Origin: Pseudomonas sp. MM213
GTDB lineage: Bacteria > Pseudomonadota > Gammaproteobacteria > Pseudomonadales > Pseudomonadaceae
Reading direction: 5' to 3'
DNA length: 64,000 nucleotides
NCBI RefSeq assembly: GCF_020423045.1
Contig: NZ_CP081943.1
Coordinates: 2,914,001 to 2,978,000, forward strand
Of this stretch, positions 24,822 through 32,557 are shown in pieces. The translations under genes and the position numbers were made by a program. Under the pieces are notes generated by a model. That model had not been told where the DNA came from. It saw only the letters and a list, made by a program, of their open reading frames with translations, and searched no databases. Position 1 is the stretch's first letter, and every line of letters starts with the position of its first letter.

Positions 24822-25820
24822 TCAGAGCAACCCATCACTTTCGGGCAATTCGTACTCCGCCGCGACCTTTCCCAACACACCGGGTTTACCCGGCTTGCTC
24901 AACGTCGGCTCCTTCCCAAGACATTCCACCAGATAGTCGATCAACACCCGCAGCTTGGGCGGCATATAACGGGTCGGCGAATGCAGCAACCACGCCCCGC
25001 CGTGGTACGACGCCAGAAACGTCCAGTCCGGCAACACCTGCACAATCAAGCCCTGCTCCAGCGCATAACGCGCGGTGAAGTACGGCAGGCTGCCAATCCC
25101 GATGTGTTGCAACACTGCGCCCAGTCGCACACCGGTGTGATTGGCGGCATAACGCCCACGCACACCGACGGTGACGGCCTTGGTGCCTTTCTTGAATTTC
25201 CAGCGCGCATCACTCGGGGTCTCGCCCAGGTAGATGCAACTGTGGTTGAGCAAGTCATGGGGATGGGTCGGCGTACCGTGCTCGGCCAGGTACTGCGGGG
25301 TGGCGCAGAGCAAATGGTCGATGGTCAGCAACTGCCGCCCGACCAGCCCGGCAGGCGGCCGATCAGTGATACGAATCGCCAGATCGACGTTGTCGTCGAT
25401 CAAATCCACCTGACGGTCTTCGAGTAACAGTTCCACATCCACTTTGGGGTAACGCCGCAGAAATTCCGGCATATGCGGGTGAATCACGAATCGTCCTACG
25501 GCTTTGGGCACGCTGACTCGCACCAGCCCTTCCGCTTCATGGGTGAACTGACCGCTGATTTCCATCACCGACTTGGCTGCGCTGACCATCTCCTGGCAAC
25601 GCTTGAATACTTCCTCGCCTCCGTCGCTCAGCCGCAGTTTGCGCGTGGTGCGTTGCAACAGGCGCGTGGCGAGTGCCTTCTCCAGACGCGAGATGCTGCG
25701 ACTGACCGCCGACGGTGAAGAGCCCAGCTGACGCGCCGCTTCGGAGAAACTGCCGGTCTCGACAACCTTGACGAATATCGCCATTTCACCGAGCAACGGC
25801 AGAGGAAGATTTATGCTCAC
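24822..25820 (-). CDS. LysR family transcriptional regulator
   Basis: A 332-aa LysR regulator: N-terminal winged helix (FVKVVETGSFSEAARQLGSSPSAVSRSISRLE) and a periplasmic-binding-protein-like effector domain of the CrgA/DmlR type. It starts with GTG at 25820, preceded by AGGAC. It diverges from the alaX-like / oxygenase / lysE-like operon across a 91-bp gap, the usual position of a LysR controlling its neighbour, so it is the best candidate regulator of that operon. The effector is unknown; if the operon works on an amino acid, that amino acid is the obvious guess. Confidence 0.92.
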   Translation of the reverse strand: MSINLPLPLLGEMAIFVKVVETGSFSEAARQLGSSPSAVSRSISRLEKALATRLLQRTTRKLRLSDGGEEVFKRCQEMVSAAKSVMEISGQFTHEAEGLVRVSVPKAVGRFVIHPHMPEFLRRYPKVDVELLLEDRQVDLIDDNVDLAIRITDRPPAGLVGRQLLTIDHLLCATPQYLAEHGTPTHPHDLLNHSCIYLGETPSDARWKFKKGTKAVTVGVRGRYAANHTGVRLGAVLQHIGIGSLPYFTARYALEQGLIVQVLPDWTFLASYHGGAWLLHSPTRYMPPKLRVLIDYLVECLGKEPTLSKPGKPGVLGKVAAEYELPESDGLL

Positions 25821-25850
25821 AGCGCAACAGTCCTTTGATGTTTGAACGGA

Positions 25851-25890
25851 TTATCACGCAATTCCACGCTTCATATAATAAAAAACAAAA
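25851..25890 (+). promoter_or_regulatory. promoter and possible Hfq/Crc site of the alaX-oxygenase-lysE operon
   Basis: TTATCA at 25851-25856 and a perfect TATAAT at 25874-25879 are spaced 17 bases apart. Right after the -10 element the sequence AAAAACAAAA (25881-25890) resembles the AAnAAnAA motif through which Hfq/Crc represses catabolic mRNAs in Pseudomonas; it would lie at the start of the leader. The -35 lies within the LysR-divergent gap, where an activator could bind. The motif could also be chance AT-richness. Confidence 0.6.
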
Positions 25891-25911
25891 TTTTTAATGA
25901 GGACATGGAAT

Positions 25912-26538
25912 ATGACGCTTCGCCTCTTTTTCCATAGTGATGACCTCAAGGCTAACGTGGAAGTCCTCGATTGCACGCCGCACGAGAACGAATTCGCTGT
26001 GGTGCTACGCGCCACACTCTTCCACCCTCAGGGCGGTGGACAACCCTTTGACACCGGCTGGATCGGCGAAAGCCAGGTACTGCGCGTGGTCCAGGACCCA
26101 GACCGGATCATCCATTTCGTCGACCGCCCCGTCCCTCTCGGCATGACCCAGATTCGCATCGATGAGCAACGTCGCCAGTTCAACGCACGAATGCATTCCG
26201 CCGGCCATTTGATCGGCCATATCGTCCAGGCCATGGGCTGGATGCCGATCAAGGCGCATCACTGGCCGGGCGAGGGACGCGTGCAGTTCAAACCGGTGGA
26301 TTGCGCGCAGGAGGTTGACGCCCGGACCATCGAGTCCGGCATAGAACAATGGATCGCCCACGACCTGCCGCGCCTGACATCGTTGCGCGAAGGCGCCCGG
26401 GAAATCGGTTTCGGTGAACTGCCCGCCTATGGCTGCGGCGGCACCCATGTACGTAGCCTGAAGGAATTGGGCACGGTCACGATCGCTTCCGTTTCGCAGA
26501 AGAAAGGAACGCTGTCAGTCCACTACAGCGTGGACTGA
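25912..26538 (+). CDS. AlaX-type alanyl-tRNA editing protein
   Basis: A 208-aa free-standing homologue of the alanyl-tRNA synthetase editing domain, which hydrolyses wrongly charged aminoacyl-tRNA in trans. All four zinc ligands are present: His95 and His99 in HSAGH, and Cys175 and His179 in CGGTH. The family's glycine motif HPQGGGQPFDTG lies near residues 38-49. The start MTLRLFF has GAGG upstream; an earlier ATG at 25897 is less favoured. It is the first gene of an operon with a 2OG-Fe(II) oxygenase and a LysE exporter. This suggests it deacylates tRNA mischarged with a non-standard amino acid handled by those genes (inference). Confidence 0.9.
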   Translation: MTLRLFFHSDDLKANVEVLDCTPHENEFAVVLRATLFHPQGGGQPFDTGWIGESQVLRVVQDPDRIIHFVDRPVPLGMTQIRIDEQRRQFNARMHSAGHLIGHIVQAMGWMPIKAHHWPGEGRVQFKPVDCAQEVDARTIESGIEQWIAHDLPRLTSLREGAREIGFGELPAYGCGGTHVRSLKELGTVTIASVSQKKGTLSVHYSVD

Positions 26539-26629
26539 GCATTTGGACGATGCCGATTCCGGCATCGCCTGGCGCCGGGGGGCCTGCATTCGCGGGCTCC
26601 GTTGACTATCCGATAGATGGACCTGAACC

Positions 26630-27400
26630 ATGATGCTTGACGTCGAGCGTCTCGATGAGACGTGCATAAAAAAACTGGCCAACGAAGAAGTCCTCGCCAT
26701 CCGGGTCAAAAGTTTCCTGGCCCCACCGCTGGCGATTCAGATCGGCGACAAGATTCTCGAGCCCGGTTTCGAAGGCTATATCAACGCACCGAGCATCGGT
26801 CGTATCGGCATGGCGTTTTATGAGGCTGAAAACCAGCCGCTGCTGATCGAAGACTATTTCGAACGCGCCACGCGCAACATCGCGGAACTGCGCAACCGTT
26901 GCGCGCCCTACTCGTCCCCGGTCGACACCCTACGCTGCATGCTCGATGAGTCCTGGCCGGCAGGTGCGCATCTGGAAAACCTCTACGGCCGCAAGATGTA
27001 TGTCGGCTTGTCCCGAGTGGTGAAACCCGGCGTGTGTTTTCTGGCCCACCACGACATCTTCGCCAAGGACGCTCCCGACAGTTACCAGGCCAGAAGCCTC
27101 GATGCGCAATTCGCCTGCAATGTTTACCTGAACATGCCCACCGAAGGCGGCGCGCTGCAGATGTGGGACCACGACATTTCTCCCGACCAGTTCGACGAAA
27201 TGCGTGGCGACAGTTACGGCATCGATCCGGCGTTGCTCGGCGCTCCAATCCTGGAGGTCCTTCCGCAACCTGGTGATTTCATCATGTTCAATTCGCGCTG
27301 CATGCACTCGGTGACACCGGGCGTGGCCGATCCGCGCCTGAGCCTTTCTTTCTTTGTCGGCTATCGCGGCAATGCTTCCCCCCTTACTTTCTGGAGTTGA
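26630..27400 (+). CDS. 2-oxoglutarate/Fe(II)-dependent oxygenase superfamily protein
   Basis: A 256-aa protein with the facial triad of 2OG-Fe(II) dioxygenases: His140 and Asp142 in AHHDIF, distal His226 in CMHSVTPG, and Arg236 in RLSLSFF to bind 2-oxoglutarate. There is no signal peptide, so it is cytoplasmic. The substrate is not recognisable. Its gene follows the AlaX-type editing gene by 91 bases and is followed after one base by a LysE-type exporter, so an amino acid hydroxylase or a similar modifying enzyme is the likeliest role (inference). The start ATG at 26630 is followed by a second Met. No identity to a characterised hydroxylase is claimed. Confidence 0.82.
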   Translation: MMLDVERLDETCIKKLANEEVLAIRVKSFLAPPLAIQIGDKILEPGFEGYINAPSIGRIGMAFYEAENQPLLIEDYFERATRNIAELRNRCAPYSSPVDTLRCMLDESWPAGAHLENLYGRKMYVGLSRVVKPGVCFLAHHDIFAKDAPDSYQARSLDAQFACNVYLNMPTEGGALQMWDHDISPDQFDEMRGDSYGIDPALLGAPILEVLPQPGDFIMFNSRCMHSVTPGVADPRLSLSFFVGYRGNASPLTFWS

Positions 27401-27401
27401 G

Positions 27402-28043
27402 ATGCAGTTTTCGAATTACCTGGGCGAGTTCCTGGCGCTGGCGACAATTCACTTTCTGGCCGTGGTCGCCCCCGGACCGGATTTTGCGGTCACCATCCGC
27501 CAGAGCGTGCGTTTCGGTCGGTGGGTAGGTATCTGTACGGCGCTGGGCATTGGCGCGGGCATTTCCGTGCACGTGCTTTACACCCTTCTTGGCGTCGGCG
27601 CGCTGATGCACACCACGCCCTGGCTGCTGACTGTGGCCAAGGTCATCGGCGGTGCCTACATTTTGTACCTGGGTGTGAGCCTGTTGCGCAGCAAGCCCAA
27701 ATCCGCGCTGGAAGGTGATAAAGAAGCCGACGAGCCGGTCGTCGAACAAACGCTGCTGAAGGCGTTCACCACCGGGTTTCTGACCAACGCGACCAATCCC
27801 AAGGCCACGCTGTTTTTCCTGGCGATCTTCACCACCCTCATCAGCGCCACGACCCCGCTGAACATTCAGGCGCTTTACGGCCTCTGGATGTGTTTCGTGA
27901 ACGCACTGTGGTTTGTCATCGTTGCCCTGTTCTTCTCCAGCAGCCGGGTGCGCGTGCTATTCATGCGCATGGGGCATTGGTTCGAACGCACCATGGGGGT
28001 AATTCTGATCCTGTTCGCCGGGCGCCTGATTCTGTCGATGTAA
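27402..28043 (+). CDS. LysE/RhtB family amino acid exporter
   Basis: A 213-aa inner-membrane protein with about six hydrophobic segments and the family's N-terminal signature (VAPGPDFAVTIRQSVRFGRWVG). Family members export amino acids such as lysine, arginine, threonine, homoserine or non-standard analogues. The ATG lies one base after the oxygenase stop, so the two are co-translated. It probably exports the oxygenase product or substrate. It ends in a terminator. Confidence 0.9.
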   Translation: MQFSNYLGEFLALATIHFLAVVAPGPDFAVTIRQSVRFGRWVGICTALGIGAGISVHVLYTLLGVGALMHTTPWLLTVAKVIGGAYILYLGVSLLRSKPKSALEGDKEADEPVVEQTLLKAFTTGFLTNATNPKATLFFLAIFTTLISATTPLNIQALYGLWMCFVNALWFVIVALFFSSSRVRVLFMRMGHWFERTMGVILILFAGRLILSM

Positions 28044-28057
28044 AAACCCGCCCACGC

Positions 28058-28095
28058 AAAAGGCCCGCTCAGTCTGACTGGCGGGCCTTTTTTTT
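28058..28095 (+). terminator. terminator of the alaX-oxygenase-lysE operon
   Basis: AAAGGCCCGC and GCGGGCCTTT pair around a loop containing TCAGTCTGACTG and are followed by eight T, 15 bases after the LysE stop codon. Confidence 0.92.
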
Positions 28096-28157: not shown

Positions 28158-28233
<76 letters not shown>

Positions 28234-28236
28234 AAA

Positions 28237-28312
28237 TGGCGTCCCCTAGGGGACTCGAACCCCTGTTACCGCCGTGAAAGGGCGGTGTCCTAGGCCACTA
28301 GACGAAGGGGAC
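28237..28312 (-). tRNA. tRNA-Glu (TTC)
   Basis: A 76-nt gene: acceptor GTCCCCT/AGGGGAC, anticodon loop CTTTCAC with anticodon TTC, T-loop TTCGAGT, and discriminator G followed by encoded CCA. It lies 3 bases upstream of tRNA-Gly and is identical to the copy at 28497-28572. Confidence 0.97.
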
Positions 28313-28416
28313 ACGCTGCCCGGAACACATGGTGTGTGTTTCGGTGCCCAGACCCGCATCCGAAGACTTGGTTCTGGTTTCACTCAGCCCTGCCCGAAAG
28401 CAACGCTGTTTAAAAT

Positions 28417-28492
<76 letters not shown>

Positions 28493-28496
28493 ATAT

Positions 28497-28572
28497 TGGC
28501 GTCCCCTAGGGGACTCGAACCCCTGTTACCGCCGTGAAAGGGCGGTGTCCTAGGCCACTAGACGAAGGGGAC
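28497..28572 (-). tRNA. tRNA-Glu (TTC), second copy
   Basis: Same 76-nt sequence as 28237-28312. It is the first gene of the transcript, about 55 bases downstream of the predicted start point of the operon promoter. Confidence 0.97.
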
Positions 28573-30484: not shown

Positions 30485-32449
30485 TCAGAGCCGGAAATGC
30501 CCGACCATCCCCTTCAACTCAACCCCCAACTGCGCCAACTCGATACTCGACGCCGCATTCCCCTGCATCGCCAACGAAGACTGATCCGCACTCGCACGAA
30601 TACTGGTCACACTGCGATTGATCTCCTCAGCCACAGAACTCTGCTCCTCGGCAGCCGCTGCAATCTGCTGGTTCATCTGCTGAATCAACGACACCGCCGC
30701 AGCAATACTGCCCAAGGCACTTTCGGTCTGAAGCGCATCACTGACCGCCAGTTTCACCAACTCGCCACTGCTCTGAATCTGATGCACCGACGACTGCGCC
30801 GCCGAACGCAAGGCACTGACCAGACGTTCAATCTCCTCGGTCGATTGCTGAGTCCGCTTCGCCAAGGCCCGCACTTCATCGGCAACCACCGCAAACCCCC
30901 TGCCCTGCTCGCCGGCCCGTGCCGCCTCGATGGCCGCGTTCAGCGCCAACAGGTTCGTCTGCTCGGCCACACTCTTGATCACGCTGAGCACCGTGCCAAT
31001 ATTCTGAATCTCCGCACTCAGGCTCTCGATGCTGGAACTGGCCGAGGACGCCGAGTCGGCCAGCTGCTCGATCCGCGCCATGCTCTGGCGCACGACCACC
31101 TGGCCACTTTCGACCTTGTCGTCCGCCGTCTGCGCAGCCTGGGCAGCTTCTTCCGCGTTACGTGCAACATCGTGCACGGTGGCGGTCATCTGGTTCATTG
31201 CAGTTGCGACCTGCTCGGTTTCTTCTTTCTGACTGCTGACTTCAAGATTGGTCTGTTCGGTCACCGCCGACAGCGATTGCGCGGAACTGGCCAATTGCTC
31301 AATGCCCGCCTGCAAACCGCTGACAATGCTGCTGAGCCCCGCGCCCATTTGCTGCATGGCCTGCATCAGCTGGCCTATCTCGTCCCGGCGGGTCACTTCA
31401 ACCGTCGCACTCAAATCGCCCGCGGCAATCTGCTGAGCCACACGGATCACACTGCGCAACGGCCCCACGATCAATCGGGTAATCACCCACGCCGCGATCA
31501 GCCCGACCAGCAAGGCCAGGGCCGATGAACCGATAATCAGCAGCGAATTCTTTTTCAGCTCGGCCTGCATCGACTGGTCTTCGGCAACATAGGCCTGATC
31601 CACCCGCTCCACCACCTGCGCGGCGCGCTGATGCAGCTGTTCATAGACGGTTTTTTCCTGGGCCAGCAGGCCGGTGTACTCGGCAAGTTTTTCGCTGAAA
31701 CCGCCAATGTGCCCGACCACCTCATTGAGGACCGTCTGATAGCCCTCGTCCTTGACCGTGGTTTTCAACTGCTCGGCCTGAGCCAGCGCCTGGTCGGCCT
31801 GCTCGATCTTGCCCTGGCTGGCACTGTCATCGCCCTTGCGGCTCTGGTCCAGACGCACGCGCGCCTCGTTCATGGCTTGCAACATCAGCCGCGATACCTG
31901 GCTGACCTGATTGGCCTGTTCGATGAACTGGCTACCGTCCTTGCCCTCGGAGTCCTTCAAGGTATAAGCGCCATCGTCGGCGAGACCGGCCTGCAACACA
32001 TCAAGGTTGTTGGCCACGCTGGACACCGACCAACTGGCCATTTCCAGCGCCAGGTCCTTGGCCTGACTCAGCGAGACAAATTCGTCAAACGCCTTGCGAT
32101 AAGCTCCCAGCGATTGCTCGACGTCGTTCATCACCGGAACGTTGGCCGGTGATTGCGCCTTGAGCTGATTCGCCAGGACGACCAGGCCTTCAACGCCCTC
32201 GTGCAACGCAGTGACGATTTTCGGGTTGCCGTGCAAGGCGTATTCCTGCTCAAGCAACCGCACCTTGAGCAGGCCACTGTTGAGCGACGACATCTGTTTG
32301 AGCCCGTCGAAGCGCTGGCTGATGGTTTGCAGGGACCATACGCCGATGGCCGCCACCAGGGCTGTCAACAGCAGCACCAGCAGAAACCCGACACCCAGTT
32401 TTTTTGCCATACCGAGGTTGGCAAAACGTCCTTGCACGGCCGAAATCAT
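30485..32449 (-). CDS. methyl-accepting chemotaxis protein with HBM-like sensor domain
   Basis: A 654-aa chemoreceptor. Transmembrane helix 1 is at about residues 14-36 and helix 2 at about 295-315. Between them lies an all-helical periplasmic domain of roughly 260 residues, the size and character of the HBM (helical bimodular) domains that bind organic acids in Pseudomonas. A HAMP domain follows, then the signalling domain with the CheA/CheW-contact hairpin ([19 protein letters not shown]). No C-terminal CheR-docking pentapeptide is seen. The start MISAVQGRF at 32449 has GGGGA upstream; the ORF extends further without support. The ligand is unknown. Confidence 0.9.
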
Positions 32450-32557
32450 TGCACTTAGTCCCCTGACATAGTCTGTTAACGCAGATTCGCAACGGGCCTG
32501 TGTCAACACAAGTCTCTGGCGTCGGAATAATGGCAAAAAGCTACGCCAACGTCGTTT

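Follow-up and report, generated by a model that had tools for sequence, protein, structure and literature searches.

An AlaX editing protein, an oxygenase and a LysE exporter as a candidate minimal cassette for making and surviving a non-standard amino acid in Pseudomonas

In Streptomyces cattleya, fluorothreonine biosynthesis is fluorinase-based, and an exporter, FthC, is found alongside FthB. FthB itself is described, in PMC11295145, as a ProXp-ST1-related stand-alone editor protecting against fluorothreonine, and CtdA, in PMC10018355, as a stand-alone canavanyl-tRNA(Arg) deacylase of Pseudomonas and Rhizobium. A stand-alone editor that guards against a toxic amino acid is a known principle, of which these two are examples. 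Here, we analyse a stretch of 64,000 nucleotides (the window) from the 6,746,355-base genome of Pseudomonas sp. MM213 (contig NZ_CP081943.1, positions 2,914,001 to 2,978,000), in which the genes of an AlaX-type trans-editing protein, a 2-oxoglutarate- and Fe(II)-dependent (2OG-Fe(II)) oxygenase, here named OXY, and a LysE/RhtB-type amino acid exporter are consecutive. Judged from sequence comparison, this trio is probably, though by no means certainly, a minimal cassette that both produces a non-standard amino acid and confers immunity to it.

In such a cassette, OXY would add a hydroxyl group to a free amino acid, and the product, most likely an analogue that is beta-hydroxylated or resembles serine or threonine in another way, would leave through the LysE/RhtB-type pump; AlaX would hydrolyse, inside the producer, tRNA mischarged with this product. 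The divergently encoded LysR protein would probably sense the compound and control AlaX through a conserved 28-base element, and relatives that lack OXY and keep AlaX, alone or together with LysE, would be bystanders protected by it. What we infer here comprises the reaction, its substrate and product, the tRNA target, the export cargo and the regulation. We favour this reading because the three genes are linked at 43 of 43 loci, have spread to a plasmid and other genera, recur as pairs in reversed order and show a marked asymmetry between OXY and AlaX, and because of a convergent halogenase cassette, a split in the AlaX tree, homology of OXY to a bes-cluster protein and the homoserine/threonine-type models matched by LysE. 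The features of the locus, in window coordinates, are as follows.

24822..25820, minus strand: LysR-type regulator, divergent from the operon (PF00126 and PF03466 above cut-off)
25830..25857, no strand assigned: conserved intergenic element GTCCTTTGATGTTTGAACGGATTATCAC, aligned in 85 loci, a probable LysR operator that overlaps the -35 box
25851..25879, plus strand: predicted sigma-70 promoter of the trio, TTATCA-17-TATAAT (promoter scan and conservation over loci)
25912..26538, plus strand: AlaX-type trans-editing protein, with the likely start at 25912 (annotated frame 25897-26538)
26630..27400, plus strand: 2OG-Fe(II) oxygenase OXY, His140-Asp142-His226 (PF13640, 38.1 bits)
27402..28043, plus strand: LysE/RhtB-type amino acid exporter (PF01810, 125.7 bits)
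28072..28086, plus strand: terminator-like hairpin with a T run (terminator scan)

Of the 199 Pseudomonas genomes sampled, 43, about a fifth, encode an OXY orthologue (88% or more). In all 43, AlaX and LysE flank OXY in the same order, AlaX being split over two frames in one of them (G034). A scan of named genomes, limited to the best 80 of 146 OXY relatives, all from Pseudomonas, retrieved LysR, AlaX, OXY and LysE at 80 of 80 loci. Outside Pseudomonas, the trio was found in G461, G837, G896 and Photobacterium sp. GJ3, the last with OXY in two pieces (a broken frame) and a further, fragmentary copy on a different plasmid, and additionally on the 6,362-base mobilizable Acinetobacter johnsonii plasmid NZ_CP068209. 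A divergent LysR gene accompanies it in G461 and G896 and not in G837. The four window genes flanking the trio were sought at G461, G837, Photobacterium and the plasmid stretch and gave no match there; in G896 one of the four was matched, beside the LysE gene, at 36% to window gene 30485-32536. The initial annotation had proposed a search for conserved adjacency of the three families, and its outcome is a trio not confined to close relatives, with four non-Pseudomonas sites, a plasmid and reversed pairs. These pairs, in which a distant OXY relative directly precedes AlaX, are encoded by Caballeronia sp. NK8, G494, Undibacterium sp. YM2 and the actinomycete Embleya sp. NBC_00896, the pair in Embleya being followed by an MFS exporter. 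The enzymes of the trio group into a single clade of the OXY tree (99/99), and since the four from reversed pairs are scattered in that tree, the pairing of OXY with AlaX appears to be either old and often lost, or to have arisen more than once. AlaX also adjoins the OXY relative in six of 15 plasmid records (H1-H5 and H9, with H4 judged from coordinates). Counting the window's genome or G837 itself, OXY was present in four of 369 genomes at class level (E <= 1e-30), four of 398 at phylum level (E <= 1e-20) and three of 198 in the family of G837. One member of that family, G1066, encodes a distant OXY relative with a LysE-family gene immediately after it and no AlaX (L251, 858-2388).

The AlaX protein carries the HxxxH and CxxxH ligands, in line with the zinc-complete protein that had been claimed, and they are kept in 91 of 91 relatives (ligand count and AlaX tree both comprised 91 rows, four short or broken copies being excluded). 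Against tRNA_SAD (PF07973, cut-off 24), it scored 24.8 bits in the genome search and 22.4 bits in hmmscan. In phmmer comparisons, it matches two structures, AlaX-M 2e1b and 9iuw, with E about 1e-12, and also the AlaRS chains 2zze and 2ztg, in agreement with homology to the AlaRS editing domain. No INS/YbaK domain, typical of FthB-type editors, was matched by this protein in Pfam or NCBIfam scans. FthB was considered as an AlaX homologue and set aside, given that PMC11295145 calls it ProXp-ST1-related. The resemblance to FthB and FthC of S. cattleya is one of arrangement, a stand-alone aminoacyl-tRNA hydrolase shielding the maker of a toxic threonine analogue; in the trio, the editor is an AlaX protein and a single oxygenase would stand in place of the fluorinase-based pathway. 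CtdA likewise stands alone as an editor and is dedicated to one non-standard amino acid, as proposed for the AlaX of the trio, but according to PMC10018355 it belongs to the B3/4 domain family and is tied to breaking down a plant compound rather than to making and exporting one.

With AlaXp (AlaX-M), the protein shares a homologous domain, the zinc ligands and a similar length, whereas the cassette AlaX proteins mostly form a separate clade and are often encoded beside amino acid modifying enzymes or exporters. In a midpoint-rooted tree of 51 AlaX proteins, many of them recruited by similarity to the AlaX of the window or of G031, 32 cassette-side rows (trio, AlaX with LysE, AlaX alone, OXY-AlaX, SyrB2-AlaX and S. 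cattleya) split from 19 mostly generic rows with support 100/99. That AlaX is an ordinary Ser/Gly-tRNA(Ala) editor, with OXY and LysE as unrelated accessory neighbours, is unlikely in our view. The enzymes reviewed as AlaXp do remove serine and glycine from tRNA(Ala) (PMC11295145), and AlaX stands alone with LysR in 35 genomes; however, the trio is kept in differing genomic surroundings and on a plasmid, the pairing recurs in reversed order in distant lineages, most cassette AlaX lie apart from generic AlaX in the tree and a longer tRNA_SAD protein, matching AlaRS in size, is already encoded in the genome. Its three tRNA_SAD matches are the AlaX of the trio and two longer frames of 897 and 652 amino acids, which we take, by their length, to be AlaS and ThrRS.

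Many of the matches listed in a class-level genome search with AlaX were AlaRS-size frames. At the 27 class-level AlaX loci fetched (L212-L238), the neighbour of AlaX is a SyrB2 relative once (L213) and a LysE gene at least twice, at L214 (by Pfam) and L230; the LysE profile used on this set missed L214 and may have missed further LysE neighbours. The S. cattleya AlaX, encoded on pSCAT (L240, 1205897-1206559), belongs to the cassette clade and is 52% identical to that of Embleya. A LysE gene lies about 1.6 kb upstream of it, and a bes-like oxygenase about 74 kb away.

OXY exceeds the PF13640 cut-off of 27 bits. The His140-Asp142-His226 triad, reported as intact in the initial annotation, is indeed the same in all 23 homologues aligned, and all 27 family members compared, down to about 25% identity, retain it together with the whole HxD...H...R pattern and its downstream arginine. 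OXY is distantly related to WelO5: it scores 17.6 bits against the WelO5-type halogenase profile PF22814 and does not reach the cut-off of 27, and one of its homologues, P0029, reaches 40.7 bits. WelO5-type halogenases have glycine or alanine replacing the aspartate ligand, a substitution not encountered at D142. Because this aspartate is present in the HxD motif and no carrier protein is encoded, OXY appears to be a stand-alone enzyme with a hydroxylase-type active site. It is also 28% identical, over 79% of the query, to an oxygenase in a S. cattleya cluster that we take to be bes. In the bes pathway, BesE hydroxylates a propargylglycine dipeptide to an ethynylserine dipeptide. BesE and WelO5 thus resemble OXY in their distant homology and in being stand-alone enzymes, the bes case acting on an amino acid derivative; the rest of the bes cluster has, by eye, no counterpart among the genes around the trio. 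A BesD-type lysine halogenase was rejected as an identity for OXY, since Asp142 is present and the S. cattleya relative has HxD (L148, 8632-9600), the HWG enzyme being its neighbour.

The exporter scores well above the PF01810 cut-off of 25.6 bits, and its top NCBIfam models are homoserine/threonine exporters, with scores below their cut-offs (TIGR00949, 151.5 against 183.95; RhtC model, 99.5 bits against 288). This type of exporter bears on the substrate of OXY. A substrate that is not an amino acid, such as a peptide, a cyclodipeptide or another small molecule, with LysE exporting the product, is very unlikely for OXY. The similarity of OXY to WelO5 would suit such a substrate, as would the relatives at about 33% that, in eight of the ten Pseudomonas loci fetched, have a CDPS-like gene and an MFS pump as neighbours (CDPS was matched by Pfam at one of these eight). 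The trio, on the other hand, lacks any peptide-making gene, its exporter is of the amino acid type and an aminoacyl-tRNA hydrolase makes little sense for such a product. The eight loci (L039, L040, L041, L042, L045, L046, L049 and L050) probably encode a pathway to a hydroxylated cyclodipeptide. The CDPS family uses aminoacyl-tRNA. As both partners of the oxygenase family, AlaX and the CDPS-like protein, belong to aminoacyl-tRNA-using families, it is conceivable that OXY acts on a tRNA-esterified amino acid, with tRNA as the carrier, in the role that a carrier protein has for SyrB2, AlaX as the releasing hydrolase and not a safeguard only, and LysE exporting the free product; to this we give the least weight of all.

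AlaX matches were obtained in 95 of the 199 Pseudomonas genomes, of which 89 were examined and six with weak hits only were left out. The 89 comprise 43 with the trio, seven with AlaX and LysE (five at the LysR locus and two beside an AraC gene) and 39 with AlaX and neither OXY nor LysE. Among the 39, G031 carries a halogenase cluster, the genes of G030, G106 and G051 are broken and that of G176 is shortened to 188 residues that include the ligands. An apparently working AlaX without an OXY orthologue is thus present in 42 genomes (7 + 35; 41 full-length frames and the shortened G176), while none of the 43 OXY orthologues occurs without AlaX (Fisher test, p = 4e-20, ignoring shared ancestry). 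AlaX without OXY, set against no OXY without AlaX, is a signature of producers and immune non-producers. The presence of OXY changes at least eight times on the AlaX tree, or six times without five outlying rows, and we infer losses rather than gains, because trios occur outside Pseudomonas. Median dN/dS of AlaX was 0.10 in trios and remained low where AlaX is alone, at 0.13 in an AlaX-only clade of 27 and 0.18 in five loci with AlaX only that fall within the clade of trios; that of LysR was below that of AlaX in every set. AlaX kept alone points to immunity against an exogenous compound, or to a role unrelated to OXY.

The strongest rival is detoxification, in which OXY would oxidize a foreign amino acid analogue, LysE would expel it and AlaX would clear the mischarged tRNA, with nothing produced. 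The AlaX-only and AlaX-LysE states, frequent in Pseudomonas, fit it, as do LysR-AlaX-LysE on another Acinetobacter plasmid and LysR-AlaX pairs in Klebsiella and Chimaeribacter records; CtdA, too, adjoins a canavanine degradation operon (PMC10018355). Yet a detoxifying oxygenase should serve without AlaX, which is found beside 43 of 43 orthologues. Several OXY relatives are, moreover, in biosynthetic settings (CDPS-like genes, a polyketide synthase, a bes-like cluster), and the parallel SyrB2-type cassette described below appears plainly biosynthetic. We consider detoxification rather unlikely. LysE-AlaX is also encoded in Priestia. Another amino acid stress module is suggested by a Cupriavidus oxalaticus plasmid, in which an AraC regulator, AlaX and a RidA-family gene are consecutive (L244, 5001-6168); AlaX was seen without such neighbours (regulator, LysE, RidA) in Pantoea soli and A. 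venetianus.

Further support for production and immunity comes from a cassette whose modifying enzyme is not homologous to OXY. In Pseudomonas G031, an adenylation (A) domain, a SyrB2-like halogenase, AlaX, an EamA exporter and a thioesterase are encoded in this order. The AlaX is 34% identical to that of the window, and the halogenase matches 2fct with E 2e-132 (phmmer) and has the motif WHQA, in which HxA is kept. The Salmonella enterica conjugative plasmid pSA20021456.1 has the same order plus a carrier protein gene, the annotations being adenylation protein, phosphopantetheine-binding protein, chlorinating enzyme, hypothetical protein (the AlaX), DMT transporter and alpha/beta hydrolase. 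G477 encodes a peptidyl carrier protein (PCP, assigned by eye), halogenase, AlaX and thioesterase at a locus that ends too soon to reveal further genes. Pairwise identity among the three halogenases is 64-74%. The cassettes lie at the following coordinates.

L239, 4212-9291 (pSA20021456.1): halogenase-AlaX-thioesterase cassette with A domain and DMT/EamA exporter
L170, 3048-8155: halogenase-AlaX-thioesterase cassette with A domain and DMT/EamA exporter
L213, 753-3405: halogenase-AlaX-thioesterase cassette

Read by eye, the A domain of G031 has the residues DFWNIGMVHK, presumably a threonine code, and the predicted product is free 4-chlorothreonine; from all three cassettes, a free chlorinated amino acid similar to threonine would be expected. 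Here, AlaX is best read as protection, because the amino acid modification is evident and release can be left to the thioesterase, and a protective AlaX in a non-homologous halogenase cassette supports the same reading for the trio. The SyrB2 and CytC3 clusters thus share with the trio the modification of an amino acid by a 2OG-Fe(II) enzyme, joined to AlaX and an exporter in G031 and Salmonella. They differ from OXY in that the substrate is carrier-bound and the enzyme is of the PhyH family with HxA, as opposed to HxD, no carrier and PF13640.

As to the locus itself, the gene order and gaps given previously are correct by open reading frame coordinates: AlaX, OXY and LysE are consecutive on the plus strand, with 91 and 1 bases between them, and LysR is divergent. 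The AlaX gene likely starts at the ATG at 25912 (MTLRLFF...) rather than at 25897, because AGGA precedes it, relatives begin there and the longer frame is interrupted upstream of 25912, by a stop codon at residue 4, in 20 of the 89 Pseudomonas loci. In 19 loci this is the sole stop, so those genes are not broken by it; internal AlaX stops were seen solely in G030 and G106, and AlaX is in two pieces in G051 and G034. The one promoter claimed for the trio corresponds to a single sigma-70-like site in the scan, with 0.9 expected by chance. It is better than the scan alone implies, because across 85 Pseudomonas loci its -35 hexamer is kept and its -10 varies little, being mostly TATAAT or TATACT. 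The single terminator claimed likewise has a counterpart in the hairpin and T run at the end of the operon, in a region where five such sites were found and 2.8 expected. LysR is encoded beside AlaX in 85 of the 89 loci, and the 28-base element between them is largely retained in all three states (43 trio, 37 AlaX-only and five AlaX-LysE loci). Immediately downstream of the operon, at 28158-28572, there are two tandem tRNA-Gly(GCC)/tRNA-Glu(TTC) pairs.

Several observations weigh against a production-and-immunity cassette. The AlaX protein scores 71.5 bits against the NCBIfam AlaXM equivalog, well short of its cut-off of 300, and so is AlaX-like only. Two LysE-linked AlaX proteins (L230 and L248) group with generic AlaX, and one without a relevant neighbour (L212) groups on the cassette side. 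In the five AlaX-LysE loci, dN/dS of AlaX is higher (0.30, seven pairs), and the 35 genomes with AlaX alone may reflect a function that does not depend on OXY. AlaX was absent at ten of ten distant Pseudomonas OXY relatives fetched (of 14 matches), was not found in six of the 15 plasmid records (H6-H8 and H11-H13, with three records outside the count) and accompanied none of the three distant OXY copies in two further genomes of the G837 family. The similarity between OXY and BesE is, at the level of sequence, too remote for a transfer of function. The proposal of the initial annotation that the three proteins work together, AlaX and LysE protecting against the product of the oxygenase, is partly supported and gains from their wide adjacency and from the SyrB2-type cassette with AlaX and exporter. 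An AlaX that is often alone had not been foreseen.

The exact trio seems to be undescribed, as had been supposed: a search of the open-access literature, with most subscription papers outside it, gave, among the papers listed, no AlaX combined with an exporter and either an oxygenase or a halogenase. As chemical weapons, non-standard amino acids that deceive aminoacyl-tRNA synthetases have been little explored. If the production-and-immunity reading is true, the trio would be a very small complete system of one enzyme, one pump and one editor, which is also plasmid-borne. AlaX proteins would gain an ecological role as immunity genes, which would explain why genomes with an editing AlaRS retain them, and the adjacency of AlaX to an exporter and to either an oxygenase or a halogenase would be a genomic handle for new amino acid antimetabolites, including the predicted pathway to free chlorothreonine.

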